40,643 nucleotides of DNA from a virus, in IMG/VR virus record IMGVR_UViG_3300035698_003916, positions 1 through 40,643 of that record; one strand, 5' to 3'. Every line of letters starts with the position of its first letter. Positions within the stretch are counted from its first letter, which is position 1. Both the position numbers and the translations under genes were made by a program. Under the pieces are notes generated by a model. That model was not told where the DNA came from, searched no databases, and saw only the letters and a list, made by a program, of their open reading frames with translations. Of this stretch, positions 343 to 37,857 are shown piece by piece.

Positions 343-372
343 TTGACAAGATACAGGTAAAGATGCGATAAT
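343..372 (+). promoter_or_regulatory. Promoter with extended -10, ahead of the tail-gene block
   Basis: TTGACA at 343-348, an 18-bp spacer, then TG at 364-365 and GATAAT at 367-372 form a near-consensus sigma-70 promoter with an extended -10. Transcription would begin near 379, give a leader of about 50 nt containing TTAGAAA at 391-397, and run straight into the terminator at 404-428. The same arrangement occurs ahead of the genes at 21723 and 37862. Confidence 0.75.
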
Positions 373-403
373 AGACAATAGGCAGATTGTTTAGAAAACT
401 ATT

Positions 404-428
404 GCCCCGTTTTATGCGGGGCCTTTTT
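404..428 (+). terminator. Intrinsic terminator/attenuator before the tail block
   Basis: GCCCCG (404-409) pairs perfectly with CGGGGC (417-422) around a 7-nt loop, followed by TTTTT (424-428). It lies only about 25 nt downstream of the predicted start of transcription and 18 nt upstream of the next start codon. It therefore terminates both read-through from upstream and the promoter at 343. TTAGAAA sits six bases upstream of the stem. Confidence 0.8.
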
Positions 429-445
429 AATGATTGGAGGTGAGT

Positions 446-1171
446 ATGACTAATAAAAGAGCAAGCGATCAGTGGATGGAGCCAGAAGTGGTTACCATAG
501 CCTCAGGAGCCACTGTTACAGCGGTTTTGAACTCTGGTGCTACAGTAACCGCTATTTTAAGCTCAGGAGCGACAGTGAATGCACTAATTTCTTCAGGAGC
601 CACTGTTACAGCAGTTATCAATTCTGGTGCTACTGTGACCTCTATAATGGTTTCAGGAGCCACTGTTAACGCTTTGTTGCAGTCAGGAGCTACCGTAAAT
701 TCCCTATTGCAGTCAGGAGCAACAGTTAACGCCCTACTTCAGTCGGGTGCTACTGTGAATGCTTTATTGGTTTCAGGGGCAACAATAACCCAAGTTGGAA
801 CAGCAACGGTTACTCCAATGGGAGCAGTTACTACCTCACCATCAGGACTGATGGCAGGTAACCCAACTACTGCACCAATAGGACTTTATAACAGCGGAAA
901 TGCGACTATCTTTGTTGCGACAAATACTTTTAAGATTACTCACTTAATGCTAGGTGTTGATGAAGCTGAAAATTTGAAGTTTTTAAGCGGGACAGACTAC
1001 ATGATGGGTAATGCCTCAATAGGATTGAGTTTAGCAGCGGAAGGTGGACTAGTTCAGGATGGTTCAGCGGAATCACCACTTTATAAGGCAACTGATAGCG
1101 CCAAAGGTTTTGTTATAAATTCTAGTGCTACAGGAGCTATCGGGGGAACAGTTAGCTGGATAGATAATTAA
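446..1171 (+). CDS. Virion protein with ten SGAT decapeptide repeats
   Basis: This 241-aa protein starts at ATG 446, eight bases after a GGAGGTGA site. An upstream in-frame TTG at 434 overlaps that site and is less likely. Residues 1-19 form a short head. Residues 20-119 are ten consecutive decapeptides of the form SGAT[VI][TN]xhhx, where the hydrophobic pair alternates with the polar SGAT segment. That is the pattern expected for a beta-solenoid or a trimeric fibrous shaft. Residues 120-241 are a Gly/Ala/Ser/Thr-rich domain ending in GGTVSWIDN. Its place at the head of a tail-gene operon suggests a fibre, spike or decoration protein. The protein encoded at 38169 has a related composition and one similar segment (ALPSGATVTP). 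I do not recognise a named family; the structural role is inferred. Confidence 0.7.
   Translation: MTNKRASDQWMEPEVVTIASGATVTAVLNSGATVTAILSSGATVNALISSGATVTAVINSGATVTSIMVSGATVNALLQSGATVNSLLQSGATVNALLQSGATVNALLVSGATITQVGTATVTPMGAVTTSPSGLMAGNPTTAPIGLYNSGNATIFVATNTFKITHLMLGVDEAENLKFLSGTDYMMGNASIGLSLAAEGGLVQDGSAESPLYKATDSAKGFVINSSATGAIGGTVSWIDN
503..802 (+). repeat. Ten tandem 30-bp coding repeats (SGAT decapeptides)
   Basis: Ten 30-bp units encode SGATVTAVLN-like decapeptides in phase. The start of each unit is best conserved at DNA level ([T/A]C[A/T]GG[A/T/G]GC[C/T/A/G]AC), while synonymous and conservative changes are spread along the rest. Units 6 to 9 (SGATVNALLQ type) are closest to each other, which points to recent local duplication. 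Copy number could vary by slippage or recombination. Confidence 0.9.
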
Positions 1172-1184
1172 AAAGGAGAAATAA

Positions 1185-2018
1185 ATGGCAGACGCCACTG
1201 GCGGAACAATAACATATTCAGGCGGTAAAACAATCCATACCTTTAACGGAAATGGTACTTTTACCGTTCCTGGTGAGGGGAATGTTGAGGCCCTAGTAAT
1301 AGCTGGCGGTGGAGGCGGGGGTGCTAATCACGGAGGAGGGGGAGGCGCAGGGGGCTTTCTGACCGATGCGGTCTTCGCAGTGACCAAGCAAGCATATTCT
1401 ATTACTGTTGGAGCTGGTGGAGCAGCGGGAACAGGTACAACTGCTGGTACTAACGGTGCAAATTCAATATTTGATTCAATAGAGCCAACTGGGGGCGGAG
1501 GCGGAGGAGCAAGGGACGGAGATGCCGTTGGGGCAGCAGGAGGAAGCGGCGGAGGCGGAGGAGGAGCGCCAGGTTCGGGTGCAGGAGCGGGGACAGGAGG
1601 CCAAGGGAGCAATGGTGGATTAGGACATGACAATGGAGCTAACTCCTCAGGAGGAGGGGGCGGTGGACAAAGCGCAGTCGGAGCCAACGCTGGCAACGAT
1701 GATGGAGGAGATGGCGGAGCTGGGGGAGCAAGTTCAATTTCAGGAGGAGCAGTAACATACGCAGGAGGTGGAGGTGGAGGCACAAACCAGGGAGGTGGCA
1801 CACCAGCCCCAGGAGGAACAGGTGGCGGGGGATATGGCGGAGCCAACGGAACACAAGCTACTCAAGGAACAGACGCTTTAGGTGGGGGCGGAGGCGGAGG
1901 AGAGGGTGGTGGGGCTTCTGGAGGAGACGGAGGAGACGGAGTTGTTATTATCAGCTATGTCACGGGCCAGTTTCCAGGTGAAGGTGGAACTATGAATACA
2001 ATGAGTAAATTTTGGTAA
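1185..2018 (+). CDS. Glycine-rich adhesin-like tail protein 1
   Basis: This 277-aa protein starts at ATG 1185 after AAAAGGAG. Residues 1-45 (TITYSGGKTIHTFNGNGTF ... EALVIAGGGG) match the N-terminal signature of the Gly_rich_2-type domain often seen in phage tail proteins. Residues 45-260 are very rich in glycine, with many GGGGGG, GGAGG and GGDGG runs, a composition associated with polyglycine-II helix bundles in phage adhesins such as T4-like gp38. The segment GGDGVVIISYVTG closes the domain and is typical of the family. About 20 further residues end in MSKFW. The likely role is a receptor-binding tip. The long proline-rich antisense frame here is only the complement of GGN codons. Confidence 0.75.
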   Translation: MADATGGTITYSGGKTIHTFNGNGTFTVPGEGNVEALVIAGGGGGGANHGGGGGAGGFLTDAVFAVTKQAYSITVGAGGAAGTGTTAGTNGANSIFDSIEPTGGGGGGARDGDAVGAAGGSGGGGGGAPGSGAGAGTGGQGSNGGLGHDNGANSSGGGGGGQSAVGANAGNDDGGDGGAGGASSISGGAVTYAGGGGGGTNQGGGTPAPGGTGGGGYGGANGTQATQGTDALGGGGGGGEGGGASGGDGGDGVVIISYVTGQFPGEGGTMNTMSKFW

Positions 2019-2055
2019 ATTAAAATATAAATAACTTTTGAAAGGAGGTGGGATA

Positions 2056-2505
2056 ATGACTAATTTAAGAAATCTTGATGCAGAAACAGGAGCAAATTTT
2101 ATTGGGGATGACACAACCCCGAATTTGACCTTTGAAGGAACATCAAGCGGAGCAGTTTTGAGACTGCAAAACGCAGACGGAACAGGAGAACAGTTAAGTA
2201 CTGTTTCTTGTCCTACTACATCACTAAACATTGCAAGCACAGGAGGGTTAGCTGCAAAGCTAAGGAGCGGAGCAACAGAGTCACCGGTTTTGGATGTGGC
2301 TCACGGAGTAGCGGTAGGAAGTGCAACAGTTGCGGTTATGAAGTTTGGTAGCTCAGTAGCAAGTGGTCCCGCTTTCGAGTTCTCAGGAACTTGTGTGGCT
2401 TCGGCCAACTCTGGTGCTACAATCGGAGCAATGGTGCGTGTAAAAGTAGGAGATCTTTATTTTTGGAGTCCGCTCATGGTAGATGCTGATACTTCGGCAC
2501 TCTAA
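2056..2505 (+). CDS. Small beta-rich virion protein, unknown
   Basis: This 149-aa protein starts at ATG 2056, after an AAAGGAGGTGGG site at 2041-2052. An in-frame TTG at 2038 lies upstream of that site and is not used. The sequence is rich in Gly, Ala, Ser and Thr with alternating hydrophobic residues. It begins TNLRNLDAETGANFIGDDTT and ends in a compact segment (GAMVRVKVGDLYFWSPLMV). There are no membrane segments or cysteine clusters beyond two isolated cysteines. Its position between an adhesin-like gene and the tail adaptor suggests a minor fibre, tip or capsid-decoration protein. No family is recognised. Confidence 0.65.
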   Translation: MTNLRNLDAETGANFIGDDTTPNLTFEGTSSGAVLRLQNADGTGEQLSTVSCPTTSLNIASTGGLAAKLRSGATESPVLDVAHGVAVGSATVAVMKFGSSVASGPAFEFSGTCVASANSGATIGAMVRVKVGDLYFWSPLMVDADTSAL

Positions 2506-2525
2506 CGTAAGCATAGAAAGGAAAA

Positions 2526-3206
2526 ATGGCTATATCGGTAAATGAAATACAAAAACGAGTCGCAGCCGTTGTGGATCAAGATGAAGACGCAATCACTAAC
2601 GGTAGTGCTGATTGGGATTTAAGACTCAAGTATATGAACATGGCCCAACTTGAATGGGCTAGTCTGAATGAGTGGCAGTCTCTCTATAAAGAGTTTAATT
2701 CTGTGACGAGTCAGAGTACTAGTAATGCTACTGTTGCACTACCTAGTGACTTCAGAAAGCTATCTAGTTTCCCAAGAATCACTGCCGATGGTGCGAGTAC
2801 CTACGATTATCCTGAGATTCGACCTCAGACTAAAGGACAGTACAACTCAACCGACAGATATATTTATATCCTAGGCAACGAGAGCGATGGTTATAAAATG
2901 ATAGTTCACCCAGAACCAACAGTTAGTGGGGCATCTATCAGCGTACCTTATATCGCAAGTCCGGCCTCTTTAGCGAGTGGGAGCGACATTTCAATGTGTC
3001 CCGACCCGTCTTATCTAGTTCAAAGGACAATCGCCTGGTTATGGGAGTCTAGGGGAGACGAAAGATTCCCGGAGGCAAAGGCGGAAGCTGATAAAATCTT
3101 AGGAAGATTACTAGAAATGGAAGGCACACCCAACGATGCATCAGTTGACGCAGACATTCAAACTGACGAGAAAGCAAAATTTGGCTTCCGTTGGGGAAGG
3201 GATTAG
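2526..3206 (+). CDS. Tail adaptor (head-tail connector) protein
   Basis: This 226-aa protein starts at ATG 2526 behind GAAAGGAAAA. The N-terminal helix (VNEIQKRVAAVVDQDEDAIT), the WASLNEWQSLYKEF segment, the VALPSDFRKLSSFP strand and the C-terminal WLWESRGDERFPEAKAEADKI helix match the general pattern of podovirus tail adaptors (SU10-adaptor or T7 gp11-like). Such proteins form a 12-mer ring between portal and nozzle. The next gene, three bases downstream, encodes a nozzle-like protein, the usual adaptor-nozzle order. Assignment rests on pattern recall and gene order, not an alignment. Confidence 0.7.
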   Translation: MAISVNEIQKRVAAVVDQDEDAITNGSADWDLRLKYMNMAQLEWASLNEWQSLYKEFNSVTSQSTSNATVALPSDFRKLSSFPRITADGASTYDYPEIRPQTKGQYNSTDRYIYILGNESDGYKMIVHPEPTVSGASISVPYIASPASLASGSDISMCPDPSYLVQRTIAWLWESRGDERFPEAKAEADKILGRLLEMEGTPNDASVDADIQTDEKAKFGFRWGRD

Positions 3207-3209
3207 ACT

Positions 3210-5144
3210 ATGCCGATTCTAAACACTAGGGCACCACGATTCAGGCCCAGAAAAGACAAAGAATTTTCCTGGGATAACTTTAGGAAGGGATTAAACACCC
3301 TCCTTAAAGATAGTGAAATAAAGAGTGACGAACTAGCTCAGGCAGATAATCTAATTTTAGTAGGAAAAGGGGTACCAACAAAGAGATGGGGTTCAAAGGC
3401 TTATTTTCTGGCTAACGCTACTGGAGCTGGCCGGGGATTAAAAGGCTATTACCCATCAGGAGGTACTCCCGAATTACTAGCTACGACAGATCAGGGTTAC
3501 ATGACCAAAAGGTCTGGAGCAAGCTACAGCTCTTTAACAGGCGCATCGTGGGCCTCAGGATATAATATAGAAATGGCCCAACTAGACGATAATATGTACG
3601 TTGTCGGAGGCAACAGGGAACTGGTCAGATATAACGGGACCTCTCTTGTCGGCTTTCCGACTGTTTCTACTCCGTCTGATGCTTTTGCTACTCAAATATC
3701 AGGAGCAAGCGGAACAAATCTTTACTCTTATAGAGTATCAGCCACAACCAAGGTAGGAGAGACACTAGCAAGCTCATCAATAACTACAGATAGTCAGCCA
3801 CAGGACCTAGGACTTGGAGCGATAGAATTGACCTGGACGGCACCGTCAGCAGCCAGTGGAACATTAAAAGCATTTAATATCTACGGCAGGGACGAGGGAG
3901 ACGAAAGATTCCTGGGAACCGTTGATTGGCAAAGTACACAATTTCTTGATAACGGTGATTCATTACCCCAAGAGTTTACTTTCCCACCAACAGCAGACAG
4001 CACGGGTGGAGTCAAGGCAAAATATGTAACCAGGCATCAAGACAGGTTGGTTTACGCAGGAATAGATGGGGAGGGAAGCAAAGTTATTATCTCAGGGAGA
4101 ACCCCGCATCAAGAAAGCACAGACATTTCTTTGGGTGGAAATTATATCAGGATTGAGCCAGACGCAGGTGATGATGTGACACAAGTTGAATCACTCGGAG
4201 AAAAGATAATTGTTTTCAAGGAGCGGTCAATTTGGGAAGTAACTTTATCAAATATTTCAGTCGGCAATTATTCTGTTACTCAACCAAAGGCAAGGCTTTT
4301 AACTTCATCAGTTGGATGTATTGCCCCTAGATCGGTAGTAGCAGTAGAAAATGACATCTTCTTCTTATCAAGAAACGGGATTTACACCCTCGGACAGGAA
4401 GCCGGGTTTATAGGCGATGTTTTAAGAAGTAATGAAATATCAGCTAAGGTAAGGCCATTTTTTGACGGTCTTTCTTCAACCCAAAAAGCAAATGCTTGTG
4501 CAAAGTACTTTAAGTTTAAATATATTTTATCGGCACCGGGGAAAGATAAGTCAATCGTATTCGATAGGGAAAGATTAGCTTGGATGGGTCCCTGGACAAG
4601 AGACGCAAATGGCTATGAGGTCTTCTTTGACTCAAGTAATGACGAAAAGCTAGTCTTTTTACAGGATGATTCACCAACAGTAGTTGAATACGACCCATCA
4701 TACGGAGATGATGAAGGAGTAGCAATCAACACCATTTTAAGAACAAAGAAAGAAGATTTTGGAGACTGGGTAAGATTTAAAACAGTCAAGCAAATTTACA
4801 CACGATGGAGGAATGTTTCTGGAGAGGTAGACGTTGACATAAAACTACAAGAAAGAACAGGAAATGTTATCACGGCAAAGAGTTTCACAGTCAATACAAG
4901 TGCTGGTAACTCAGGTTGGGGATCAGGTCAATGGGGAGACTTTTTATGGGCAGACTCAGAGGAAGAAGGCGGTGCATCAGATATTAATGAATTATACCGT
5001 TGGGCTAATCTGAACAAGTCGGCCAGGAACGTACAGCTTATTATAAAAACAGACAACAGGAATGACAATTATGAATTATTAGGCATCCGAGGAATAGCAA
5101 AACCTATGGGGTTGGGCTTTTTACCATCGGGTGAGAAAGTATAA
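3210..5144 (+). CDS. Tail nozzle / stabilisation protein (T7 gp12 or P22 gp10-like)
   Basis: This 644-aa protein starts at ATG 3210. Its N-terminus (WDNFRKGLNTLLKDSEIKSDE ... ADNLILVGKG) has the signature of podovirus nozzle proteins, in which a GGxNT/DNhhL motif opens a beta-propeller. Residues about 155-250 resemble a fibronectin-III-like insert (LYSYRVSATTKVGETLAS, IELTWTAPSAASGTLKAFNIYG). Residues 270-480 contain repeated blade-like strands (DRLVYAG, EKIIVFKERSIWEV, DIFFLSRNGIYTL). The protein would form the hexameric tip of the short tail, attached to the adaptor encoded just upstream. Length is within the usual range for this class. Confidence 0.75.
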   Translation: MPILNTRAPRFRPRKDKEFSWDNFRKGLNTLLKDSEIKSDELAQADNLILVGKGVPTKRWGSKAYFLANATGAGRGLKGYYPSGGTPELLATTDQGYMTKRSGASYSSLTGASWASGYNIEMAQLDDNMYVVGGNRELVRYNGTSLVGFPTVSTPSDAFATQISGASGTNLYSYRVSATTKVGETLASSSITTDSQPQDLGLGAIELTWTAPSAASGTLKAFNIYGRDEGDERFLGTVDWQSTQFLDNGDSLPQEFTFPPTADSTGGVKAKYVTRHQDRLVYAGIDGEGSKVIISGRTPHQESTDISLGGNYIRIEPDAGDDVTQVESLGEKIIVFKERSIWEVTLSNISVGNYSVTQPKARLLTSSVGCIAPRSVVAVENDIFFLSRNGIYTLGQEAGFIGDVLRSNEISAKVRPFFDGLSSTQKANACAKYFKFKYILSAPGKDKSIVFDRERLAWMGPWTRDANGYEVFFDSSNDEKLVFLQDDSPTVVEYDPSYGDDEGVAINTILRTKKEDFGDWVRFKTVKQIYTRWRNVSGEVDVDIKLQERTGNVITAKSFTVNTSAGNSGWGSGQWGDFLWADSEEEGGASDINELYRWANLNKSARNVQLIIKTDNRNDNYELLGIRGIAKPMGLGFLPSGEKV

Positions 5145-5156
5145 AGGAGGTGAAGT

Positions 5157-6023: not shown

Positions 6024-6025
6024 AT

Positions 6026-7129: not shown

Positions 7130-7157
7130 TATTTATTACCCTGAGAGGAGGTGGAAT

Positions 7158-8465: not shown

Positions 8466-8489
8466 AGAGTTTATTTTTTAGGAGGTTAA

Positions 8490-12650: not shown

Positions 12651-12661
12651 CACATTTAAAC

Positions 12662-12690
12662 TTGACAACGTATGCCTTTTTTGAGATAAT
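12662..12690 (+). promoter_or_regulatory. Promoter ahead of the rtcB leader
   Basis: TTGACA (12662-12667), a 17-bp spacer, TG at 12682-12683 and GATAAT (12685-12690) repeat the extended -10 design seen at 343. Transcription would start near 12697 and pass through the structured leader at 12748-12803. It lies 12 bases after the tRNA-like gene and about 360 bases before rtcB. Confidence 0.75.
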
Positions 12691-12803: not shown

Positions 12804-12804
12804 A

Positions 12805-19929: not shown

Positions 19930-21373
19930 GAAATATATCGAAAGAAGTTTTGAGATTATCGACAAAGATAATAAAAGAGTTTCTTTTATTCTGAATAAGG
20001 CTCAATCGAAATTCATTGAAACAATGACTGGCCGGGACTTTATCTTGAAAGCTAGACAAGAGGGCTTTTCATCTTTGATTCTTGCTATTTTCCTGGTAGA
20101 TTTCTTAACCCTAGAAAACTCAAGGGGAGTTGTTATCAGCCATGAGACAGAGGCAACAATAAAACTCTTTGATAGGGCGAAATTCTTTCTTCAAACTTTG
20201 GCTGACAAGGGCATTGATATCCCTCTGAAATATAGCTCAAGACGGGAAATGGTCAATGAGGCCCTAAACTCAACGCTTTACATTCAGACAGCAGGAGCCA
20301 AGGGTCTACTCAGAGGAGAGACAATCACTAATCTGCATTTCTCAGAACCAGCTTTCTATGCCAACGACCCGGAGAAAATATGTTTAGGTGCTATGCAGTC
20401 AGTAATACCGAGCGGTAGGATAATCTTTGAGTCAACAGCTAACGGGATAGGTAATTACTATCACAGGGAATGGGTCAGGGCAGAGAGGGGCGAATCAAAC
20501 TTTAAGCCTCATTTTTTCAGCAGAGAGTTTTATGATAATAAGTTTCTGGACGATAAGCGGAAAGAGTTTGCGGAGGAGTCATTGTTTAACCAGGAGTATC
20601 CCCTGACCCCCTTAGAGGCGTTTATAGCCTCTGGCAGACCATTCTTTAACCTAGAAAACCTGCAATGGTATTTGGACCACCTAGTGAAGGCTCCTATAAA
20701 AATCGGGTACTTAATGGCAGGTGACCCAATTCATATTGACGAAAACCCAAAGGGGTATTGGAAGTTCTGGGAATTACCACGACCAGGAGAGTCCTACATA
20801 ATTACCTGCGATATTGGTGAGGTTTCTGATTATTCAGCAGCATCAGTGTTGAAAAGAAAAACAAATGAGGTTATTGCTACTTTTCATGGGCATTTAGATT
20901 CTGGAGAGCTGGCAGCTAATCTTGCAACCGCTGGTAGATGGTTCAACAATGCAGTCATAGCACCAGAGAAGAACGGTTTAGGAATGGGAGTTCTAACAGG
21001 CCTCAAGGGTTTGAGTTACGGAAATATATACAGGAGGAAGACACACGACAAGTTAACCGACAAAACTGGCTACGACCAGGGATGGCTCACTACATCCAGC
21101 ACGAGGCCATTAATGTTGTCTAACTTACAAACAATGATTACCGATAAGGGTTTAAAGGTTTATGACAAAGATTCTATTGAAGAATTAATGACCTTTTATC
21201 GGGACGAGAAAACTGGCAAGCCAGAGGCTCAGGTCGGTTGCCATGACGATAGAGTTATTTCTTTAGCTATTTTAGCTAGGCTGATTGAGGAACAGCCGAC
21301 TTCAATGGAGACAGAAGATGAAAAATTTGACCAAGCAGATTATAATAACAAATGGAGGATAGGAAAAAAATGA
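19919..21373 (+). CDS. terL: Terminase large subunit
   Basis: This 484-aa protein starts at ATG 19919, after CTGGAGGAGTGGAATA. It is the packaging motor: ATPase plus nuclease. A Walker A-like ARQEGFSS lies at 45-52 (the relaxed form seen in many terminases), a Walker B-like LHFSE near 140, a coupling motif FESTANG near 165, and an RNase H-type nuclease with CDIGEVSD near 297 and GCHDDRVISLAI near 441. All parts are intact and length is normal. It is followed by a four-base overlap with a small gene, then a promoter-attenuator and the portal gene. Confidence 0.9.
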   Translation: MDYRKYIERSFEIIDKDNKRVSFILNKAQSKFIETMTGRDFILKARQEGFSSLILAIFLVDFLTLENSRGVVISHETEATIKLFDRAKFFLQTLADKGIDIPLKYSSRREMVNEALNSTLYIQTAGAKGLLRGETITNLHFSEPAFYANDPEKICLGAMQSVIPSGRIIFESTANGIGNYYHREWVRAERGESNFKPHFFSREFYDNKFLDDKRKEFAEESLFNQEYPLTPLEAFIASGRPFFNLENLQWYLDHLVKAPIKIGYLMAGDPIHIDENPKGYWKFWELPRPGESYIITCDIGEVSDYSAASVLKRKTNEVIATFHGHLDSGELAANLATAGRWFNNAVIAPEKNGLGMGVLTGLKGLSYGNIYRRKTHDKLTDKTGYDQGWLTTSSTRPLMLSNLQTMITDKGLKVYDKDSIEELMTFYRDEKTGKPEAQVGCHDDRVISLAILARLIEEQPTSMETEDEKFDQADYNNKWRIGKK

Positions 21374-21627
21374 ATAGTACACCAACGATAAGCCATTTAA
21401 GCAAAAAAGAGTTCAACGGACAATGGATTGCTTTTAAGAGCGCAGTAATGAAGACTGGTATCAACCTACCAGCAGTAATGGAAGTAATGGACGCTTTTAT
21501 CAAGGTGCATGAGGCAGGAGGGCATGGAAAAGTTCAGCTCTCAATTCAAAATGATAGAATAAGCCATGTGAAGATAGAGGGTAGCAGAGATACTAGCTTT
21601 AACTTGTTTTGGGAAGAGCGAACTTGA
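21370..21627 (+). CDS. Small protein between terminase and portal, unknown
   Basis: This 85-aa protein starts at ATG 21370 in an ATGA overlap with the terminase gene, ten bases after GGAGGA. An in-frame ATG at 21352 overlaps that ribosome binding site and is less likely. The sequence is mixed alpha/beta (FNGQWIAFKSAVMKTGINLPAVMEVMDAF ... VQLSIQNDRISHVKIEG). No motif is visible. Its stop overlaps the -35 box of the promoter at 21624. No family is recognised. Confidence 0.6.
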   Translation: MNSTPTISHLSKKEFNGQWIAFKSAVMKTGINLPAVMEVMDAFIKVHEAGGHGKVQLSIQNDRISHVKIEGSRDTSFNLFWEERT

Positions 21628-21652
21628 CTTTTTTAATTAAAGATATTAAGAT
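21624..21652 (+). promoter_or_regulatory. Promoter ahead of the portal gene
   Basis: TTGACT (21624-21629), a 17-bp spacer and TAAGAT (21647-21652) form a moderate promoter. TTAGAAA follows at 21671-21677, 18 bases after the -10, exactly as at the 343 promoter, and then a terminator. The -10 lacks the TG extension. Confidence 0.55.
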
Positions 21653-21680
21653 ATATAAGAAGCTCAGAGGTTAGAAACCC

Positions 21681-21717
21681 AAGAGTCGTGTTTAATGATG
21701 CGGCTCTTTATTTTTTT
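21681..21717 (+). terminator. Terminator/attenuator before the portal gene
   Basis: AAGAGTCG (21681-21688) pairs with CGGCTCTT (21701-21708), eight pairs with one G-U, followed by a U-rich tract ending in seven Ts (21711-21717). It lies 22-29 bases after the predicted transcription start and six bases before the portal ATG, which has no Shine-Dalgarno of its own outside this structure. Confidence 0.8.
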
Positions 21718-21722: not shown

Positions 21723-23738
21723 ATGTCAGAATTTTTGATAAAAGGTACAAAAGCGGAACGCAAGAGATTTTCTGAGGTAGTCCGCCATTACTCAATGGCA
21801 AAGGAGGACCTTGAAGCTCGTATACCCGGCATGGACAAAACCGACGAAATGGTCAGGTCTTACATAAACGAAGAGAACTGGCCCTACGATTCAATGGTTT
21901 TTGACCCCCGAAGTTTCACCGCTATTTTTGAAAAGACCGCAAGACTTCTAGCAAGAAAGCTCAGAGGCCGAATGGTACCCCGTGAAGGTGGCGATTCGCT
22001 TGGAGCAAAAATCAATAATGAACTTTTGTCATTTCAGTGGGATGAGGTAGCTAGGCTAGATGGCTTTTCAATGTTGGCAAGGTGGGCAAGAATGGATCAG
22101 AACGCCAGGAAGTATGGCGTTTCTTTTGGTATAGCCCCTTGGCATTATGAAACCAGGCCAGGTTATGAAGCCGGAGACGAAAGAAGAGTTTATTTTGACG
22201 GTCCAACATTTAATCCCCTAGTAAACAGAGATTGTTTACCTAACCCATCTTATTCAATTATCAAGAACTGGTTCCAGTCAAGAGAATATAAAACTATTCA
22301 GGACTTGGAGAGAGTCAATGATGCAAGCAGGTCAAAGCCAGTCTACAAAAACCTTTCTATCCTCAAGGATTCAGTTAAGATACTTACCAAGAACCAGTCA
22401 AAGGGCAAAATGGACTCAAGGGATCAGAACTGGGCATCAAGAAATAAATCAATTAAAGGACTTACTGATTATTTGGGTAAGGACGAGATTTATAGAGTAA
22501 TTGAGGTTGTCACTGAATACGGAGAAGACAGATGGGTTACTTTCGCACCAAAGCACGGTATTATACTCCGGGATATCCGCAACCCATACAAACATGGTCA
22601 AATTCCAGTTGTAATGCTTAAATATTACGAGGTTGATGATGACCTTTATGGATTGCCGGAACTAGAGCCAGTTGCTTCTGAACAACAGGCAATCAACGCT
22701 TTAATTTCTCAATATTTGGATTCAATTAACAGGAGCCTTAACCCGATCCTAAAAGTCCGGGCTACAGGGGTTAAAATGCATACGATTAAATTTGGAATGG
22801 GCAAGAAATGGATTATGAATGACCCGGCAACAGATGTTTTACCTCACACGACTTCAGTCAAAGGAGTAACTGAGTTTGCCTCTACATATCGCTTTTTAGT
22901 TGGAGCAATGCAGGAGGGGCTAGGAGAGGCCAGTGCAGCCACGTCTAACCTCGCACCTGGTAGGGAAGATAAGACAGCGACAGAAGTGCGTGATACAGCC
23001 TCTCAGAGACTTGCACGGGATAACTTCAACCAGTTAGCATTATCTGAATCAATTAAAAGACAAATGACTCTTTGGCAATTAATGAACAAACAGTTCTTCT
23101 TCAATGACCCAAAGGAAAAGGAGAGGATAATTCGTATCTCAGGCAAAGATGCTATTCGTTATTTCCAACGAAGGGGATTAGACCAGATGGCAATTACAGA
23201 AGAAGGCATAGAGGCAATTAAGATTGCAGAGAGTAATGGCGTTCAGGTCAAGGCTGAAGATTTCTTGGAGCCGATGCATAAGACAAAAGATGGTAAACCA
23301 AAAATGGAGGTTGAAGATGGTGGAGAAACAGCTTCACTTATTCTCGAAGAAGAAGATATGTCGGGAAATTACGACTATATCCCAGATGTAGAATCAATGA
23401 GTATTCCAAACGATTCTCAACTATTGGCCTTGAAGTCTAAAATGATAGAGACAATCAAGGATCCGAACGTTACAGGACTCTTGCAAAGGGAAGGTTATAA
23501 GGTTAAAATGAAAGAGGTTCTTGAAGATTTCTTTGAGGACGCAGGAATGAAAGACGCAGAAAAATATTTTGAAAAAGCAGAGGAGGTAATAGATGAAACT
23601 CAACAAACAGGAGGAGCAAGCGCTGGATCAGTCCAGCAAGCTAGTGGGAATGTCCAAGCACCCAGGATGGGCGGAGGTACTCCAACCGTTGTTAGAGGCC
23701 AAGCGGGACAAAGTGTTCCCCGACCCGGCAGAGTTTAA
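21723..23738 (+). CDS. Portal protein
   Basis: This 671-aa protein starts at ATG 21723, close behind the terminator and without a clear ribosome binding site. It forms the dodecameric ring through which DNA enters and leaves the head. The N-terminal region (AERKRFSEVVRHYSMAKEDL), RNPYKHGQIPVVMLKYYEVDDDLYGLPELEPV near 285, the helix EQQAINALISQYLDSINRS, and TATEVRDTASQRLARDNFN near 420 follow the podovirus/SU10-type portal pattern. The tail from about 620 is Gly/Gln/Pro-rich (GGASAGSVQQASGN). The last 146 bases also encode the start of the next gene in another frame. Confidence 0.82.
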   Translation: MSEFLIKGTKAERKRFSEVVRHYSMAKEDLEARIPGMDKTDEMVRSYINEENWPYDSMVFDPRSFTAIFEKTARLLARKLRGRMVPREGGDSLGAKINNELLSFQWDEVARLDGFSMLARWARMDQNARKYGVSFGIAPWHYETRPGYEAGDERRVYFDGPTFNPLVNRDCLPNPSYSIIKNWFQSREYKTIQDLERVNDASRSKPVYKNLSILKDSVKILTKNQSKGKMDSRDQNWASRNKSIKGLTDYLGKDEIYRVIEVVTEYGEDRWVTFAPKHGIILRDIRNPYKHGQIPVVMLKYYEVDDDLYGLPELEPVASEQQAINALISQYLDSINRSLNPILKVRATGVKMHTIKFGMGKKWIMNDPATDVLPHTTSVKGVTEFASTYRFLVGAMQEGLGEASAATSNLAPGREDKTATEVRDTASQRLARDNFNQLALSESIKRQMTLWQLMNKQFFFNDPKEKERIIRISGKDAIRYFQRRGLDQMAITEEGIEAIKIAESNGVQVKAEDFLEPMHKTKDGKPKMEVEDGGETASLILEEEDMSGNYDYIPDVESMSIPNDSQLLALKSKMIETIKDPNVTGLLQREGYKVKMKEVLEDFFEDAGMKDAEKYFEKAEEVIDETQQTGGASAGSVQQASGNVQAPRMGGGTPTVVRGQAGQSVPRPGRV

Positions 23739-31897: not shown

Positions 31898-32367
31898 CCA
31901 TTGAGGAACGGGAAAAACTAAGGACTATATGCCTTGAGTTACCAGATAATTTTGTTGCAGTAGAGTTGGGATCAGGAAAGGGGTGTTCAACAAGGATAAT
32001 CGGTAAGATTGCTAAGGCAAAGCACGGGCACCTTTATACCATTGATAAAGTCGATTACAAGCTCAGGAGAAGGAGAACAAAGAATTTACCAGTAACTTTC
32101 ATCCAAGGCGATACACAAAGAGTAGAGTGGCAGGACGAGATTCATCTTCTTTGGATTGATGCCCTTCATACTTATCAAGGATTATTCGATGATTTAGAAC
32201 GCTGGGGACCATTCGTTAAAAAGGACGGTTTTATACTAGGACACGACTATGTTAACCTAAAGAGTGTCAGGAGAGCTTCAATGGACTACGCAAAGAAAAC
32301 TGATAAACTATTTCTAATAACTCCAACAATGTTTTTAATTGTTAAAAAAGAAATGGTCGGGGAATAA
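31867..32367 (+). CDS. Class I SAM-dependent methyltransferase (Methyltransf_24-like)
   Basis: This 166-aa protein starts at GTG 31867, seven bases after AAGAAGGGA. An in-frame ATG at 31894 has no ribosome binding site. Motif I VAVELGSGKGCSTRII is intact, YTIDKVD is motif II, and IDALHTYQGLFDDLERWGPFVKKDGFILGHDY matches the Methyltransf_24 group found in glycan clusters, often sugar O-methyltransferases. It overlaps the glycosyltransferase upstream by 31 bases. The substrate is unknown. Confidence 0.8.
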   Translation: MPKAPSKSPMTIEEREKLRTICLELPDNFVAVELGSGKGCSTRIIGKIAKAKHGHLYTIDKVDYKLRRRRTKNLPVTFIQGDTQRVEWQDEIHLLWIDALHTYQGLFDDLERWGPFVKKDGFILGHDYVNLKSVRRASMDYAKKTDKLFLITPTMFLIVKKEMVGE

Positions 32368-32399
32368 GAGACATTTATTATAAATTTTAAGGAGACAAA

Positions 32400-33377
32400 G
32401 TGGGAAAATTAAAGGTTTTTGTAACTGGGGCAACAGGATTCATAGCGGAGCATTTTATAAGGAGGTTTCACGATGAATATAAAATTGGTGTATTTGTGCG
32501 CAATAGTGTTCGCTATAATGGTATTAGCGACCAGCTTAATAAGTACTGTTCAAGAGTCTATCTTGGTGACCTAAAGGACAAGGACAGTATTGACCGGGCC
32601 TTGCAAGACTTCCAACCAGACATTATTTATCATCTAGGGGCGCAGTCTTCTGTCCAATATAGCTTCGATCACCCAGTAGAGGTGTCGGATGTCAATTATC
32701 TAGGTACGGTTAGATTAGCAGAGAGCGCCAGGCAGTACGTCCCTAAGCTAAAGAAGTTTATATTTGCTTCTACTATGGAGACATACGGTTATAGCCACCC
32801 TAGGGAGTCTTTTGATGAATCAGTCGAGTCTCGACCAAACTGCCCTTACGCAGTCGCTAAGAGTGCCTCAGAGCTATATTTAAAGTATCTTCATCACTCT
32901 TTTGACTTTCCCGTGATAATTGTTAGACAAACTAACGTCTATGGCAGGGAAGACAGTGATTTTTTCGTAGTGGAGGCCATTATCTCAAGAATGTTAAAGA
33001 ATAAGGACAAAATCAAGATGGGGACTGGTGACTCAATCAGGAACTTCCTACATATTGATGATTTGTTAGACTTAGACAAGAAAATGATTGAGTGGAAACA
33101 CGTTGAAGGTGCCCCGACAATTTTCGGTACAGTTTATAATACTGGTCCAGAAAATGGCGTCACTATTAAAGACTTGGCCCATACAATCGCTATTAAATTG
33201 GACTGGTGCGGGGAAATTGAATGGGGTAAAGTACAAATGCGACCAGGCAGGGGAGAAGTCTATTATTTAAACTCTAATGCTGATAAGGCGAAAGAAGACT
33301 TTGGATGGGAACCTGAAACAGAATTATCTAACGGTTTAGACAAAATTATAAAAGTATGGAAAAAAAAGTATCAATAA
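32400..33377 (+). CDS. NAD(P)-dependent sugar-nucleotide epimerase/dehydratase (extended SDR)
   Basis: This 325-aa protein starts at GTG 32400 after TTAAGGAGACAAA. The Rossmann motif TGATGFIAEHF (residues 9-19), FASTMETYG near 122-130, and catalytic YAVAK (Tyr150, Lys154) identify the extended SDR family. HLGAQSSVQYSFDHP and the RQTNVYGRED segment resemble GDP-mannose 4,6-dehydratase or related epimerases. It would make a nucleotide-sugar precursor, such as a deoxy or epimerised sugar, for the transferases beside it. The exact substrate cannot be told from sequence alone. Confidence 0.85.
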   Translation: MGKLKVFVTGATGFIAEHFIRRFHDEYKIGVFVRNSVRYNGISDQLNKYCSRVYLGDLKDKDSIDRALQDFQPDIIYHLGAQSSVQYSFDHPVEVSDVNYLGTVRLAESARQYVPKLKKFIFASTMETYGYSHPRESFDESVESRPNCPYAVAKSASELYLKYLHHSFDFPVIIVRQTNVYGREDSDFFVVEAIISRMLKNKDKIKMGTGDSIRNFLHIDDLLDLDKKMIEWKHVEGAPTIFGTVYNTGPENGVTIKDLAHTIAIKLDWCGEIEWGKVQMRPGRGEVYYLNSNADKAKEDFGWEPETELSNGLDKIIKVWKKKYQ

Positions 33378-34114
33378 TTATTACAAGCAAAGACAGACTA
33401 GAGGCGTTAAAAGCGTTTCTTTCTTCTATCGAGGGAAAAACAAAAGTCCCCTACGAGATTATAGTGGTTGATGACGCTTCTAAAGACGGTTCTCAGAAAT
33501 GGCTAGGCACGAGGGATGACATAAAAACTGTTTTAAATAAGAAGTCGGTACCAGTAGACGTTGCAAACAACCAGGGGGCTGAACTAGCCACTGGAGAGTT
33601 TCTAATCTTTGTTAATGAAGATATGGAGGCAACAGATGGCTGGCTTAAAAACCAGATACTTCTTTTAGAACAATTGGAAATGACCTACAAGGTCGGTTCT
33701 CTGGCTCAGAAAGTATTTTTAACTAACGGATCAATACAGTCAAGGGGCCATGCCTTTTCTGGGCTATATCAAATAAGTGTTCCCGGAGAAGATGTTGTTA
33801 AAAAAGTTGACTGGTCACCGTTTCCTTTTATGAGGAGAAGTGTTTTAGAGAAGGTTATGGGCTGGACTGTTCACGGTCAGATTTACTACGGAGATACTGA
33901 CCTGGGCCTAACACTACAAAAGGCTGGTTATACAAACTGGTATTGTCCATCTTCTGTTTTAATTCATCATACCCTTGGGCTGGAAGAAGGGACGGACTTT
34001 GACAAAGAGAGAAGGCAGCATAATGAATCAGTGGAACAGGTAAAATCAAAAATGTCTTTTATGAAGAAGTGGCAATTATGGTTAGAAACGGAGCATAGGG
34101 ACCTATTTACATGA
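33356..34114 (+). CDS. Family 2 glycosyltransferase
   Basis: This 252-aa protein starts at ATG 33356 without its own ribosome binding site, overlapping the SDR gene by 22 bases. The GT-A core reads VSIIITSKDRLEALKAFLSSI, YEIIVVDDASKDGSQKWL, then NNQGAELATGEFLIFVNEDMEATDGWL, where NED takes the DxD position. FPFMRRSVLEKVMGW and YYGDTDLGLTLQKAGY match the acceptor side. Typical of rhamnosyl- or other glycosyltransferases in surface-glycan clusters. The donor is unknown. Confidence 0.83.
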   Translation: MEKKVSIIITSKDRLEALKAFLSSIEGKTKVPYEIIVVDDASKDGSQKWLGTRDDIKTVLNKKSVPVDVANNQGAELATGEFLIFVNEDMEATDGWLKNQILLLEQLEMTYKVGSLAQKVFLTNGSIQSRGHAFSGLYQISVPGEDVVKKVDWSPFPFMRRSVLEKVMGWTVHGQIYYGDTDLGLTLQKAGYTNWYCPSSVLIHHTLGLEEGTDFDKERRQHNESVEQVKSKMSFMKKWQLWLETEHRDLFT

Positions 34115-35094
34115 AAGAAAGAAATGTCTTTGACCAGAACAGGAAAGTATTAAGATATCTCGACAGGGTGCATGAATATGCCTTTAAAGATATCACTCGT
34201 CCAGTCTCAATAGATATCAGTTTGACCGAGGACTGCAATCATGCTTGTCCTGGTTGCGTAGGGAACAGAGTGGACAGGCGTGTCTTAACCGCAGAAGGCT
34301 GGGGAAGGATAGCAGCAGAGATGAGAGACCGGGGAGTTAAGTCTATGAAAATTTCTGGCGGAGGAGAGCCTTTAATGCACCCAGACTATATGAATGTTAT
34401 TTGGGCGATTCGCAATACGGGGCTGGAGGTTGGATTGATTACCAACGGTCAGTTGATTGACAAAGATAACGCCAAGGGGTTGACAGACCTTTGCACTTGG
34501 ATTCGTGTTAGCGTTGACGCAGGCGACAGGAAAAGATTTAAAAAGGTACACGGGGTTGACCGCTACGATGAAATAGTCAAGAGCGTTAAAACTCTTGCTA
34601 GGCTCTCTGGCGAGTGTACCGTGGGTACAGCCTTTCTTATATCAAAGGACAATGAATGGGTTTTGGATGCTGTGCGACAGGCTTCCACCTGGGGTGTTGA
34701 TTATGCACAAATTAGGCCTTTTAATGGATTATTCTTTGAAAGCGATGAATTACTGGCAAGGGCAAAGCAATATGAGAAGCCAGGCTTTCAGGTTTTACAC
34801 TCTCCAACAAGATTTGATTCTAGTTTCAAGTTCCCAGAATACTGCCACGCTAAACATTTTATCCCCAGCATATCAACAGACGGGAAGGTTTACCCGTGTT
34901 GCCACCTGAGGGGCGTTGAAAAGTATCTGGTCGGGGACCTAAAAACCGAACCACTATCAACAATCTTGAATGAAATGAAACAGAGAACTGAGGATTTTGA
35001 TTTTGACTGTTGTGTGCGGTCTTGCCGAGGGAGCGTTGTTAATAATTTAGTTGATAAAATTAAGGAGCCAATTAAACATGAAGCCTTTATGTAA
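34111..35094 (+). CDS. Radical SAM enzyme with SPASM-like C-terminus
   Basis: This 327-aa protein starts at ATG 34111 in an ATGA overlap. The [4Fe-4S] motif DCNHACPGC (Cys42, Cys46, Cys49) and SGGGEP near 81-86 identify a radical SAM enzyme. The C-terminus has further cysteines (YCHAKHF, YPCCHLRG, CCVRSC) like the SPASM auxiliary-cluster domain. Such enzymes modify peptides or sugars, for example by dehydrogenation, epimerisation or deoxygenation. Among glycosyltransferases it is likely to alter a sugar or an attached group. Radical SAM enzymes are rare in podoviruses, but here the gene is intact and coupled to its neighbours. Confidence 0.88.
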   Translation: MKERNVFDQNRKVLRYLDRVHEYAFKDITRPVSIDISLTEDCNHACPGCVGNRVDRRVLTAEGWGRIAAEMRDRGVKSMKISGGGEPLMHPDYMNVIWAIRNTGLEVGLITNGQLIDKDNAKGLTDLCTWIRVSVDAGDRKRFKKVHGVDRYDEIVKSVKTLARLSGECTVGTAFLISKDNEWVLDAVRQASTWGVDYAQIRPFNGLFFESDELLARAKQYEKPGFQVLHSPTRFDSSFKFPEYCHAKHFIPSISTDGKVYPCCHLRGVEKYLVGDLKTEPLSTILNEMKQRTEDFDFDCCVRSCRGSVVNNLVDKIKEPIKHEAFM

Positions 35095-35917
35095 CAAGAA
35101 ATACCCATTTCCTCTAGCTTTAAACTATACCCTTCATAATAAATACTTATCGACTGGTGAATACTACACGAGGGCTGCCAAGAGGCTAGGAATGCCAATT
35201 AAGACAGCCAAAAAAGGAGATGCTTGTGTTTTAAATATTGAATCCCAGGGACATCCATTTTTAAAGGGCAAAGTAGTAACTGGTTATTATGACCTTGATG
35301 TTTTTATCCCTAGGGCTTTTAACATGGGGAAGTTTCAAAACGACAGTGACTTTTTGTTTACATCCCATTTTCCTAAATATGACATTAAACCAGGTGACCT
35401 CGATCACTATGTAGTTCTTCATGCCACCGATCCAGTATTGACCAAAAGGCGAAGAAAAAAGAAACACGATGTTGTTATCAGCGGGAGACTAGACTGGCTT
35501 TATAACGAAAGACTGGCCTGCTCTAAGCTACTACAGAAGCATTTTAATTGCTTAGTAATACCGCCAACACCAACCGTTGAATATATAAGTTTAATGACTA
35601 GCGGTAAAATTATTTTTAATTATTCTCTAACTGGCGATGTTTCAAGAAGACCCTTTGACGGAATGGCAACAGGGGTCCTTATCCACGAAAGGAATAATAA
35701 GATTCATGTTATTGGTGAAGAAAACAAACACTTCCTCGCCTTTGATTCTAGGGACGCTCTAGTCGAGATAGTAAAAGAACTTTTAAGAGACGAAGATTAT
35801 CTTGATAGGATCGACAAAGCTAGTACGGCTCATGTCTATAGCAAACATACCTACGATCACAGATTGACTTTTATTTATGATAAAATGAAAAAACTTTATC
35901 TAGAGAGGACAAAATGA
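35078..35917 (+). CDS. Glycosyltransferase-like protein
   Basis: This 279-aa protein starts at ATG 35078 after TTAAGGAGCCAATTAAAC, overlapping the radical SAM gene by 17 bases. An in-frame TTG at 35051 precedes the ribosome binding site. The C-terminal half (DVVISGRLDWLYNERLACSKLL, TVEYISLMTSGKIIFNYSLTGD, RPFDGMATGVLIHE) resembles the C-terminal lobe of GT-B enzymes of the Glyco_trans_1_2 type, and the N-terminal half would be the acceptor lobe. The assignment is weaker than for the other transferases. Context supports it. Confidence 0.62.
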   Translation: MKPLCNKKYPFPLALNYTLHNKYLSTGEYYTRAAKRLGMPIKTAKKGDACVLNIESQGHPFLKGKVVTGYYDLDVFIPRAFNMGKFQNDSDFLFTSHFPKYDIKPGDLDHYVVLHATDPVLTKRRRKKKHDVVISGRLDWLYNERLACSKLLQKHFNCLVIPPTPTVEYISLMTSGKIIFNYSLTGDVSRRPFDGMATGVLIHERNNKIHVIGEENKHFLAFDSRDALVEIVKELLRDEDYLDRIDKASTAHVYSKHTYDHRLTFIYDKMKKLYLERTK

Positions 35918-36579
35918 TTTTAAGCGGAAAAGAGGATATTCTTGTGTTAACGGCTCATGCCGATGATGAAACTATTTTCTGTGGGGGAACGATGATGGTT
36001 TGGCATAAATGCAACTGGACTGTTATCTGTTGTACTGGCACAAAGACTGATATGCGTGGAACACAGTTTGTCAGAGCAATGAAGTATTTTCAACATCTTG
36101 GGGTGAATATTGTTAAGTATGATATGTTGGAGCTTTACGATGATGGGATTGCTCCTACTCCATCGCAGGAAGAGTTATGGGAAAAGAAGATTAGAGCTTT
36201 GAATTTAAAACCAGACATGGTTCTTTCCCACAACGCAAGGGGAGAATATGAGTCTCCGTACCATATCACGCTCCATAATGTAGCCAAAAAGATTTATCCC
36301 AATATCTGGGAGTTTATATGTCCTGGTTCTTATAAAGTTTACCCTCAACCCTGGAAAGAGGAAGTAATGACTATTCCGTTGAGCCGACAGATGCTTGATC
36401 TAAAGACAGAAGTTTTCAATCGGTGCTACACTTCAGAATTATTATGCTGGAAGAATTTGCCGGGGGTTATGAATTACGAATTTAGACAGGGGCCAGAGCT
36501 TTTTACCAGAGGAGAACCACTGTGGGACCCTAAAACTGGAAAGGCGTTTAAAAAGAAGCCACAGGAGGCCATTAAATGA
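35914..36579 (+). CDS. PIG-L/LmbE-type deacetylase
   Basis: This 221-aa protein starts at ATG 35914 in an ATGA overlap. The metal motif AHADDETIFCGG (residues 14-25; the family consensus is AHPDDE) and a downstream YHITLHN segment near 117-123 giving the third histidine mark the PIG-L zinc deacetylases, which remove N-acetyl groups from GlcNAc-containing glycans or glycolipids. Ala for Pro in the motif is a mild variation. It suggests that the cassette's glycan contains an N-acetyl sugar that is deacetylated. Confidence 0.85.
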   Translation: MILSGKEDILVLTAHADDETIFCGGTMMVWHKCNWTVICCTGTKTDMRGTQFVRAMKYFQHLGVNIVKYDMLELYDDGIAPTPSQEELWEKKIRALNLKPDMVLSHNARGEYESPYHITLHNVAKKIYPNIWEFICPGSYKVYPQPWKEEVMTIPLSRQMLDLKTEVFNRCYTSELLCWKNLPGVMNYEFRQGPELFTRGEPLWDPKTGKAFKKKPQEAIK

Positions 36580-37343
36580 AAATTTCGATAATAACTCCCA
36601 CAATCCGAAGAAAAGGGCTGGAGATTGTCGCTAAGAGCCTCAGGAGGCAGGAATTTACAGACTTTGAGTGGCTAGTTGGGTCTAGTTTCAAGCCTTTTCA
36701 GCATAAACCAGTTTGGATCGAGGATAATTTCAAAGAAGGGTTCTGGTCACTTAATAGAATTTACAACAAATTGATTGATAGTGCCAAGGGGGAATTGATT
36801 GTCTCATGGCAAGACCACACTTTTGCTAATCCTGATTGTTTGTCAAAGTTTTGGTTTCACTACGAGAATAATAAAAAAGCTATTGTTTCAGCAGTTGGCG
36901 ACAAGTATGTTGATGATACCTGGACCACTAAGACCTGGCAGGACCCAAGAAAAAGAAAAGACTTCGGAAGTTTCTATGAAGTTAACTATCCTGACATTGA
37001 AGGCAATCTCTGCTCGGTTCCGAAACAGGCTATACTAGATGTTGGCGGTTTTGATTCTGGATTAGACTTTTTAGGATTTGGGATGGATTGGTACTCAGTC
37101 TTTAATAGGATCTTTGAAAATAAGGGGTACAAGTTCTACCTTGACCAGTCGTGCGAAAGCTTCTCATTGAGCCACCCACGGGTAGAGGGATGGGAAAAGA
37201 ATAATCTAATTCATAGCGGATACCACAAGAGGAGAACAGAGCTAAGGAAAGAAGGGAAATGGCTCAAACTTGAACGTCATGGTATGATAAAACGAAAAGT
37301 GAAAGGAGGTACGGATGAAAAAACATTTAAAAAAACATTGTAA
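36576..37343 (+). CDS. Family 2-like glycosyltransferase
   Basis: This 255-aa protein starts at ATG 36576 in an ATGA overlap. ISIITPTIRRKGLEIVAKSLRRQ is a GT2 start, SAKGELIVSWQDHTFANPDCL holds the nucleotide-sugar site with WQDH in place of DxD, and FDSGLDFLGFGMDWYSVFNRIFENKGYKFYLD matches the acceptor side (ED/DWD-like region). The altered DxD makes metal dependence uncertain. The last transferase of the cassette; a short membrane protein gene overlaps its end by 29 bases. Confidence 0.75.
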   Translation: MKISIITPTIRRKGLEIVAKSLRRQEFTDFEWLVGSSFKPFQHKPVWIEDNFKEGFWSLNRIYNKLIDSAKGELIVSWQDHTFANPDCLSKFWFHYENNKKAIVSAVGDKYVDDTWTTKTWQDPRKRKDFGSFYEVNYPDIEGNLCSVPKQAILDVGGFDSGLDFLGFGMDWYSVFNRIFENKGYKFYLDQSCESFSLSHPRVEGWEKNNLIHSGYHKRRTELRKEGKWLKLERHGMIKRKVKGGTDEKTFKKTL

Positions 37344-37581
37344 ATCAGGCTTATTGCCTTTTGTGTTGTTAGCTCTGATTCCTATTCTTTACTGGAATGG
37401 TATAAGACCAGCCAATATCAGAACCCATTGCCACTATAGTTCCCAAGAAATGGTTGAGGATGTTAGAGAGAGAAAAACTGGAAGCCATTCTGAGCCTGTT
37501 AGTTTTAGTTTCCACGAGATACTGGTTGATTATTACAAGGACATTTACACTAAGTGCCTACACAGAGAGGGATTAAAATAA
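37315..37581 (+). CDS. Single-pass membrane protein at the end of the glycan cassette
   Basis: This 88-aa protein starts at ATG 37315, preceded by AAAGGAGGTACGG inside the end of the glycosyltransferase gene. The basic N-terminus (KKHLKKHCKSG) and a transmembrane helix at 13-28 (LLPFVLLALIPILYW) suggest an anchor or uncleaved signal. The remaining 60 residues are hydrophilic, with His and Cys (THCHYSS, KCLHREG). It could hold cassette enzymes at the membrane or be exported. No family is recognised. Confidence 0.6.
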   Translation: MKKHLKKHCKSGLLPFVLLALIPILYWNGIRPANIRTHCHYSSQEMVEDVRERKTGSHSEPVSFSFHEILVDYYKDIYTKCLHREGLK

Positions 37582-37644
37582 TTTATTTCTCTTTGGTAAC
37601 CCTGGCCTATCATCTAATTGTTTATTATTATCTTTGGAGAAACG

Positions 37645-37782
37645 ATGGCAGAATTATTTAAAAACATTGAGGAGTTCGTGCAAATTACCAGAAAGAGGAA
37701 AACTAGGGTCTTTAAACCTCCCTGGAGTCCGAGTATAGAACTTTGCAATAAATTAAGGAGACAAAGAAAGAAAAAGGTTTGA
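37645..37782 (+). CDS. 45-aa basic protein, unknown
   Basis: The ATG at 37645 follows TTTGGAGAAACG. The product begins AELFKNIEEFVQITRKRK and ends with a strongly basic RRQRKKKV. The stop overlaps the -35 box of the promoter at 37779. The gap 37582-37644 holds nothing else that I can see. It may be a small nucleic-acid-binding protein. Confidence 0.45.
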   Translation: MAELFKNIEEFVQITRKRKTRVFKPPWSPSIELCNKLRRQRKKKV

Positions 37783-37807
37783 CTTTTTTTCGTATGTTTG
37801 CTATATT
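37779..37807 (+). promoter_or_regulatory. Promoter ahead of the second virion block
   Basis: TTGACT (37779-37784), a 17-bp spacer, TG at 37799-37800 and TATATT (37802-37807) form an extended -10 promoter. TTAGAAA follows at 37823-37829, 15 bases after the -10, then the terminator at 37836. The layout matches the promoters at 343 and 21624. Confidence 0.75.
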
Positions 37808-37835
37808 AGGGCAAGGTAATACTTAGAAAGTTGGA

Positions 37836-37857
37836 CCCCATTTTCGGGGCTTTTTTT
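37836..37857 (+). terminator. Terminator/attenuator before the second virion block
   Basis: CCCC (37836-37839) pairs with GGGG (37846-37849) around ATTTTC, followed by C and seven Ts (37851-37857). TTAGAAA ends six bases upstream of the stem, the same distance as at 391-404. The ATG of the next gene is only five bases after the T run, so the gene lacks its own ribosome binding site. Confidence 0.75.

Follow-up and report, generated by a model that had tools for sequence, protein, structure and literature searches.

Overlapping leader hairpins and intrinsic terminators suggest an antitermination switch before virion genes in a group of uncultured phages

Introduction

Several described systems decide between termination and read-through by means of a leader RNA. 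The foot of the ribonucleic antiterminator (RAT) hairpin overlaps the terminator, so that the two structures are exclusive, and a BglG/SacY/LicT protein stabilises the hairpin (PMC9981650). In the targets of the ANTAR proteins EutV, NasR and AmiR a hairpin overlaps the terminator stem and bases of its loops are recognised (PMC3369936, PMC8934654). The dfn/mln leader runs from the promoter through a small RNA hairpin and an intrinsic terminator into the operon, and is served by LoaP, a NusG paralogue, through a UNCG-tetraloop hairpin (PMC12691694). The put RNA of HK022 (~70 nt, two long stem-loops) acts on early operons and needs no protein (PMC9378689). Here, we analyse three leaders with the heptamer TTAGAAA between a promoter and an intrinsic terminator in the virus record IMGVR_UViG_3300035698_003916 (the whole record, a linear sequence of 40,643 bases that may be a fragment; hereafter the window). 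We argue that the heptamer belongs to an RNA hairpin that overlaps the terminator and probably serves as a switch for virion genes.

Results

Three leaders of one type in front of virion genes

Direct reading of the sequence gave the same order at three sites, all on the + strand: a sigma70-type promoter, a leader of ~30 nt, an intrinsic terminator and a gene of a virion block. At site 1 the promoter (343..372; TTGACA at 343-348, 18 nt, GATAAT at 367-372, with TG before the -10) is followed by TTAGAAA (391-397) and a terminator (404..428; hairpin 404-422, T run to 428); the gene behind it (446..1171, ATG at 446) encodes a repetitive SGATVT protein and opens a tail-side virion block, as judged by the synteny of the following genes. 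Site 2 comprises a promoter at 21624..21652 (TTGACT at 21624-21629, 17 nt, TAAGAT at 21647-21652), TTAGAAA at 21671-21677 and a terminator at 21681..21717 (hairpin 21681-21708, T run to 21717), and stands before the gene for the portal protein (21723..23738, ATG at 21723; PHROG portal match). At site 3 the promoter (37779..37807; TTGACT at 37779-37784, 17 nt, TATATT at 37802-37807, again with TG before the -10), TTAGAAA (37823-37829) and a terminator with a CCCC/GGGG hairpin (37836..37857; hairpin 37836-37849, T run to 37857) precede a gene at 37862..38209 (ATG at 37862); its family is represented in 18 of the 22 related contigs, a set that includes many fragments, and is often found behind such a module there. 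The initial annotation had placed a promoter, TTAGAAA and a T-run hairpin directly before the virion-block genes at 446, 21723 and 37862, with 15-18 nt between promoter and heptamer and another 3-6 nt to the hairpin, and both the arrangement and the spacings were confirmed. Measured from the -10 to the terminator, the leaders are 19-40 nt long and hold one hairpin. None of those at the three window sites contains an ATG start, and leader-peptide attenuation was therefore rejected.

The heptamer as part of a two-helix hairpin

TTAGAAA appears to provide the loop region of an RNA hairpin with two helices, made of an outer helix (P1), an A-rich internal loop, an inner helix (P2) and the loop UAGAA. 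These hairpins span 381..406 at site 1 (GGCA-gatt-GTT[UAGAA]AAC-tat-TGCC), 21662..21686 at site 2 (GCUC-aga-GGU[UAGAA]ACC-caa-GAGU) and 37815..37837 at site 3 (GGU-aat-ACU[UAGAA]AGU-ugg-ACC), all on the + strand. The flanks of the heptamer are complementary at all three sites, each time with a different sequence (GTTTAGAAAAC, GGTTAGAAACC and ACTTAGAAAGT), and the same position in relatives is occupied by GCTTAGAAAGC (G012), AATTAGAAATT and AGTTAGAAACT (G005), AGTTAGAAACT and CGATAGAATCG (G018), ACCTAGAAGGT (L159) and AGTTAGAAACT (G034). With UAGAA as the sole anchor, a fully complementary 3-bp stem was present in 9 of 9 modules (permuted partners averaged 1.2). In a MAFFT alignment of 12 UAGAA-type elements all 3 pairs of P2 were changed on both sides while 97% of the cells stayed paired, and moving the partners by one column lowered the pairing to 39-44%. 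The complementarity of the anchored stems and the covariation of P2 thus indicate a hairpin conserved in structure, beyond a sequence motif.

As the variable lengths of the internal loop made P1 unalignable by MAFFT, this helix was assessed by folding and by permutation of hand-parsed modules. When 44 leaders were folded without supervision (each as 30 nt of leader extended into the terminator by its first 6 nt), most gave one and the same shape, in which P1 has 3-5 bp and P2 3-4 bp, the A-rich internal loop between them measures 2-6 nt on one side and 1-4 nt on the other, and the apical loop has ~5 nt (mean z -1.53, combined p 3e-15). Among 38 modules parsed by hand, pairing was seen at 143/152 positions of P1 and 112/114 of P2, the maxima with permuted partners being 100 and 75. 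Considering that the stems change their sequence, yet stay complementary and tolerate G-U pairs, we favour an RNA over a DNA element; a DNA operator was rejected on the same grounds, and recognition at the DNA level seems unlikely. Thus, TTAGAAA, which had been offered as a recognition element in either DNA or RNA, is retained as part of a likely RNA recognition element, the element proper being the two-helix hairpin.

As a word, the heptamer shows no enrichment in the window (17 copies against a shuffled mean of 15.6), whereas TTGACW followed after 38-60 nt by TTAGAAA occurs 4 times against a shuffled mean of 0.26, a count of 4 never being reached in 100 shuffles. The earlier worry about chance occurrence was hence justified for the 7-mer itself, but not for its promoter-spaced arrangement. 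The fourth of these promoter-heptamer pairs (14526-14586) was rejected, as it has neither a terminator nor complementary flanks and a hairpin; TTAGAAAGGA in this interval simply serves the gene at 14593 as its ribosome-binding region. Scanning a viral-contig collection for promoter, TTAGAAA and T run gave 110 stretches, 80 of which became loci; almost all of these 80 were chance matches, and TTAGAAA alone was for this reason discarded as a general signature. The suggested search for the heptamer between promoter and terminator therefore recovered mostly chance matches in the collection, while the arrangement and the hairpin were found to be kept in relatives. Judged from sequence comparison, the observation is real through this conserved arrangement and the hairpin around TTAGAAA, not through the 7-mer.

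Hairpin and terminator are predicted to compete for the same nucleotides

In the window P1 is formed by GGCA/UGCC (site 1), GCUC/GAGU (site 2) and GGU/ACC (site 3), and each of these helices shares 2-4 nt with the terminator stem: at site 1 the 3' strand (403-406) overlaps a stem that starts at 404, and at site 2 GAGU (21683-21686) lies inside the stem. Since the terminator stem begins with nucleotides that P1 uses for its 3' strand, the two structures are predicted to be mutually exclusive. The terminator 5' arm pairs into its own leader over 3.9 of 7 nt, as compared to 2.4 with shuffled leaders (p 3e-7). With -5.5, about -5.5 and -3.0 kcal/mol at sites 1 to 3 the leader hairpins are weak, and the terminators are stronger (-14.2, -13.7 and -7.1 kcal/mol), so that termination would be expected by default.

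Distribution in related phages

Profile searches of viral contigs yielded 54 portal relatives. Of 40 distinct relatives, 26 have a promoter and a terminator just before the portal gene (1% in shuffles), and in 20 of these the two-helix element is present as well; before TerL the pair was found in 1 of 24 cases, and there without the element. Among the fetched contigs the pair also preceded members of the 37862 (12/21), 7158 (4/14), 2038 (4/14) and 5157 (2/17) gene families, and at the settings of the test it preceded neither the major capsid (0/20) or scaffold (0/19) genes nor the homologues of the genes at 26536 (0/20), 3210 (0/16) and 2526 (0/17). One G009 module does precede a 2526 homologue, below the promoter score of the test. 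By their distribution over gene families, the modules thus label the genes that open virion blocks.

A loosely defined descriptor did not discriminate (251 hits in real against 198 in shuffled sequence), and a stricter one was used instead; in the 22 contigs it gave 82 promoter-terminator pairs against 30 in shuffles, and 52 against 10 with the two-helix element. G009 carries at least 6 modules (on the late strand), G013 four, and G029 and G031 four or more each. In G009, no module was seen among the genes at 191-8859, which lie mostly on the other strand. As a separate observation, in most of the six late modules of this contig (L141/L142) the hairpin is directly preceded by a conserved ATATAGTTCAAA-like stretch.

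The group is remote from described phages. No detectably related portal was found among 50,697 phage records of GenBank, and the relatives of the capsid are distant (28-36% identity, LUZ24-like phages included); in two of these, LUZ24 and MW202524, the module was absent by the same descriptor. Concerning the host, the capsid and portal profiles had no relatives in a species-level genome collection.

Loops differ between phages and agree within them

Loops (in classes assigned by hand) were identical in 50% of the pairs from the same phage, as compared to 8% with shuffled labels. UAGAA is the loop of the window, G005 and G018, and UAGUAA (of a UARUAA class) that of G013; AGAAC was found in G031, AGCAC/AGCAA in G009 and UUUA in G033. 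GAAAA occurs in G021 and G023, these two together with G026, L168 and L189 making up the phages with GAAAA or GAGAA loops, and other loops occur in other phages. In lambda the boxB pentaloop is GAAAA, and each lambdoid phage has its own reader pair of N and boxB. The loop pattern is as expected if every phage encoded its own reader, different hosts being another possible cause.

Discussion

A putative factor-dependent switch for late genes

We reason that the modules probably switch late genes by factor-dependent antitermination and follow the design of the BglG/LicT RAT or the ANTAR targets, with boxB-like loops, since a default terminator combined with a weak, overlapping and loop-specific hairpin is what characterises protein-dependent antiterminators such as the RAT and ANTAR targets. 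Host RNA polymerase would start at the sigma70-type promoter and make a transcript of ~50-60 nt, which by default would end at the intrinsic terminator just before the gene. Alternatively, the leader could fold into the two-helix hairpin (with an apical loop of 5-6 nt), P1 taking the first nucleotides of the terminator stem; alone, this hairpin would be too weak and the terminator would win. We propose that the hairpin is bound and stabilised by a factor produced at an earlier stage of infection, most likely a protein of the phage that recognises the loop specific to it. With the hairpin held in place, the terminator would be blocked and the polymerase would proceed into the virion genes. The promoter-leader-terminator order, its conservation, the covariation, the overlap with the terminator arm, the restriction to virion blocks and the phage-specific loops are seen in the sequences; default termination, factor-dependent read-through, its timing and the identity of the factor are inferred. 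The shared attenuation or antitermination switch for late genes put forward by the initial annotation hence keeps its footing in a leader type that is shared, precedes virion genes and is conserved in relatives, the switching itself being deduced; its parallel to lambda Q (qut) and HK022 put appears less apt, as the use of the terminator 5' arm by P1 points to a mutually exclusive antiterminator instead.

The likeness to the RAT lies in a single two-part leader hairpin that (here by prediction) overlaps the terminator. Unlike the RAT, which has a consensus sequence and governs sugar use, the element precedes phage virion genes, its stems vary freely and its loop is phage-specific; moreover, CAT_RBD (PF03123) was missing from the 22 contigs (many of them fragments, and a host copy is possible). 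The ANTAR targets share the terminator-overlapping hairpin, but have two hexaloops with A1 and G4 rather than one hairpin with mainly pentaloops (UAGAA, GAAAA, AGAAC), and the ANTAR domain (PF03861) was found in none of the 22, partly fragmentary, contigs.

Alternative readings of the leaders

The hairpin might instead be a loading site of the boxB/nut kind, which brings a phage protein, alone or together with Nus factors, onto the polymerase for processive read-through of this and later terminators, the overlap of P1 and terminator being incidental. This we regard as unlikely, though it accounts for several features: the element resembles boxB in being a short hairpin with a phage-specific pentaloop (GAAAA and GAGAA resemble the lambda loop, and some relatives have exactly GAAAA), and LoaP demonstrates that a leader hairpin and a terminator, in the same sequence of promoter, small RNA hairpin, intrinsic terminator and operon, can act via a polymerase-bound factor (PMC12691694). 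However, P1 and the terminator arm pair above chance, and a processive system would have less need of a module in front of every block, as is found here; unlike lambda nut, there are several late virion sites, each with the hairpin directly before and overlapping its terminator. In the LoaP leader a pause site sets the hairpin apart from the terminator, and a NusG domain (PF02357) was not found in the 22 contigs (many being fragments; a host copy is possible). No boxA-like element was seen in the window leaders by eye, a systematic search not having been made.

It is very unlikely that the terminators simply end the upstream operon, or that the hairpins stabilise the 5' end of late mRNA, with leaky and unregulated read-through. 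Site 2 is indeed the first strong + strand terminator past the early and terminase genes (under the switch proposed above it would also stop early transcription arriving from the terminase region), and at several modules (sites 2 and 3, G009) T run and start codon are only a few nt apart, with no visible Shine-Dalgarno motif. Yet every time a promoter stands upstream of the terminator, where it would be wasted, and the covariation of P1 and P2, the phage-specific loops and the restriction to virion genes call for a specific reader.

Similarly, we consider it highly improbable that a protein binds the promoter DNA, loads at a sigma-dependent pause and then passes the terminator, as Q and AlpA do, although those systems too have a promoter and then a terminator before late or lysis genes. 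All four modules of G013 (L143-L145) do carry a TA-containing, pause-element-like hexamer (TAGACT, TATACC, TAGGCT, TAGCTC) exactly 5 nt past the -10, but, with G013 as a possible exception, -10-like pause elements are not enriched overall (23 of 56 leaders against 32 expected), what is conserved is a structure in the RNA, and the Q domain (PF06530) had no match in the 22 contigs (other Q families and AlpA were not searched). Hardly any credence can be given to a leader RNA that itself modifies RNA polymerase with no dedicated protein, for, although put also lies directly behind a phage promoter and acts without a phage protein, the element here is ~26 nt long with one hairpin instead of ~70 nt with two on early operons, its loops differ between phages while agreeing within them, and an adjacent terminator would be pointless under constitutive read-through.

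Several observations count against a switch based on mutual exclusion. P1 is short and often includes G-U pairs, and site 3 is the weakest case: its P1 has just 3 bp, with 2 nt common to the terminator, and without ACC the hairpin does not fold alone. Parsing by hand favours P1, the tests independent of it being only folding and terminator-arm overlap. About a third of the portal-upstream regions fail the strict test (some because the terminators there are long-looped), some phages (G029) have mixed loops, and no candidate factor with a known antiterminator domain was found.

Candidates for the reader

Besides virion genes and glycosyltransferases, most contigs share a gene for a DUF2292-like protein (~90 aa). 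An Arg-rich gene universal to the contigs was not found; several basic small open reading frames are present, none of which was recognised as N-like (N proteins diverge fast). In the window the DUF2292-like protein (21352..21627, + strand) lies between TerL and the portal module, and its family is present, in the same position, in 19 of the 22 contigs. The G013 member matches PF10055 with an E of 0.0045, below the curated cut-off; the predicted fold (three helices and a beta hairpin) had no match in PDB. As the last gene outside the control of the modules it might be the trans-acting factor, which is a guess; a host-encoded factor is also possible. The window further contains, at 11837-11992 (flanked by a large virion gene and small genes of membrane type), a 51-residue, extremely Lys/Arg-rich protein with no family match; this and another basic protein, at 37645-37782, are further candidates.

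Neighbouring features of the window

Further RNA features lie outside the three modules. A tRNA-like stretch at 12556-12652 has a 7-bp acceptor-type stem (GGGGCGG/CCGCCCC), a canonical T-arm (GGGTTCAAGTCCC) and a long middle part; it was not called by ARAGORN or Rfam and is situated shortly before the RNA ligase gene rtcB (13047-14219). Behind a strong promoter (TTGACA-17-GATAAT) in the interval 12662-12806, ~110 nt fold as a long hairpin ending in a T run (z -2.8), possibly a small RNA or another terminator-gated leader, its design being unlike that of the three modules. Inside the virion block, a 10-kb run (27134-37343) of glycosyltransferase, methyltransferase, epimerase and deacetylase-like genes is partly common to most relatives.

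Novelty and implications

Rfam had no match at the window sites up to an E of 1, to a RAT family or any other, and 14 related loci gave no match at gathering score; in the literature (open-licence papers) a multi-site phage late switch with such overlapping hairpins and phage-specific loops was not found. Thus, while the principle of mutually exclusive antitermination is known, a multi-site late switch of this kind in phages is probably new. Somewhat more tentatively, we suggest that the hairpins may form a hitherto undescribed family of RNA antiterminators that controls virion genes across a clade of uncultured phages and is read by a phage RNA-binding protein diversified together with the loop, the DUF2292-like neighbour being one possible reader. 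The modules offer a sequence-defined and testable mechanism of early-to-late switching in a phage group without a GenBank phage relative at the level of the portal. Phage antitermination is known mainly via N, Q and put, and the leaders described here would, if the proposal is true, add a RAT-like solution, provide a set of compact and possibly orthogonal RNA switches, and predict a new RNA-binding protein.

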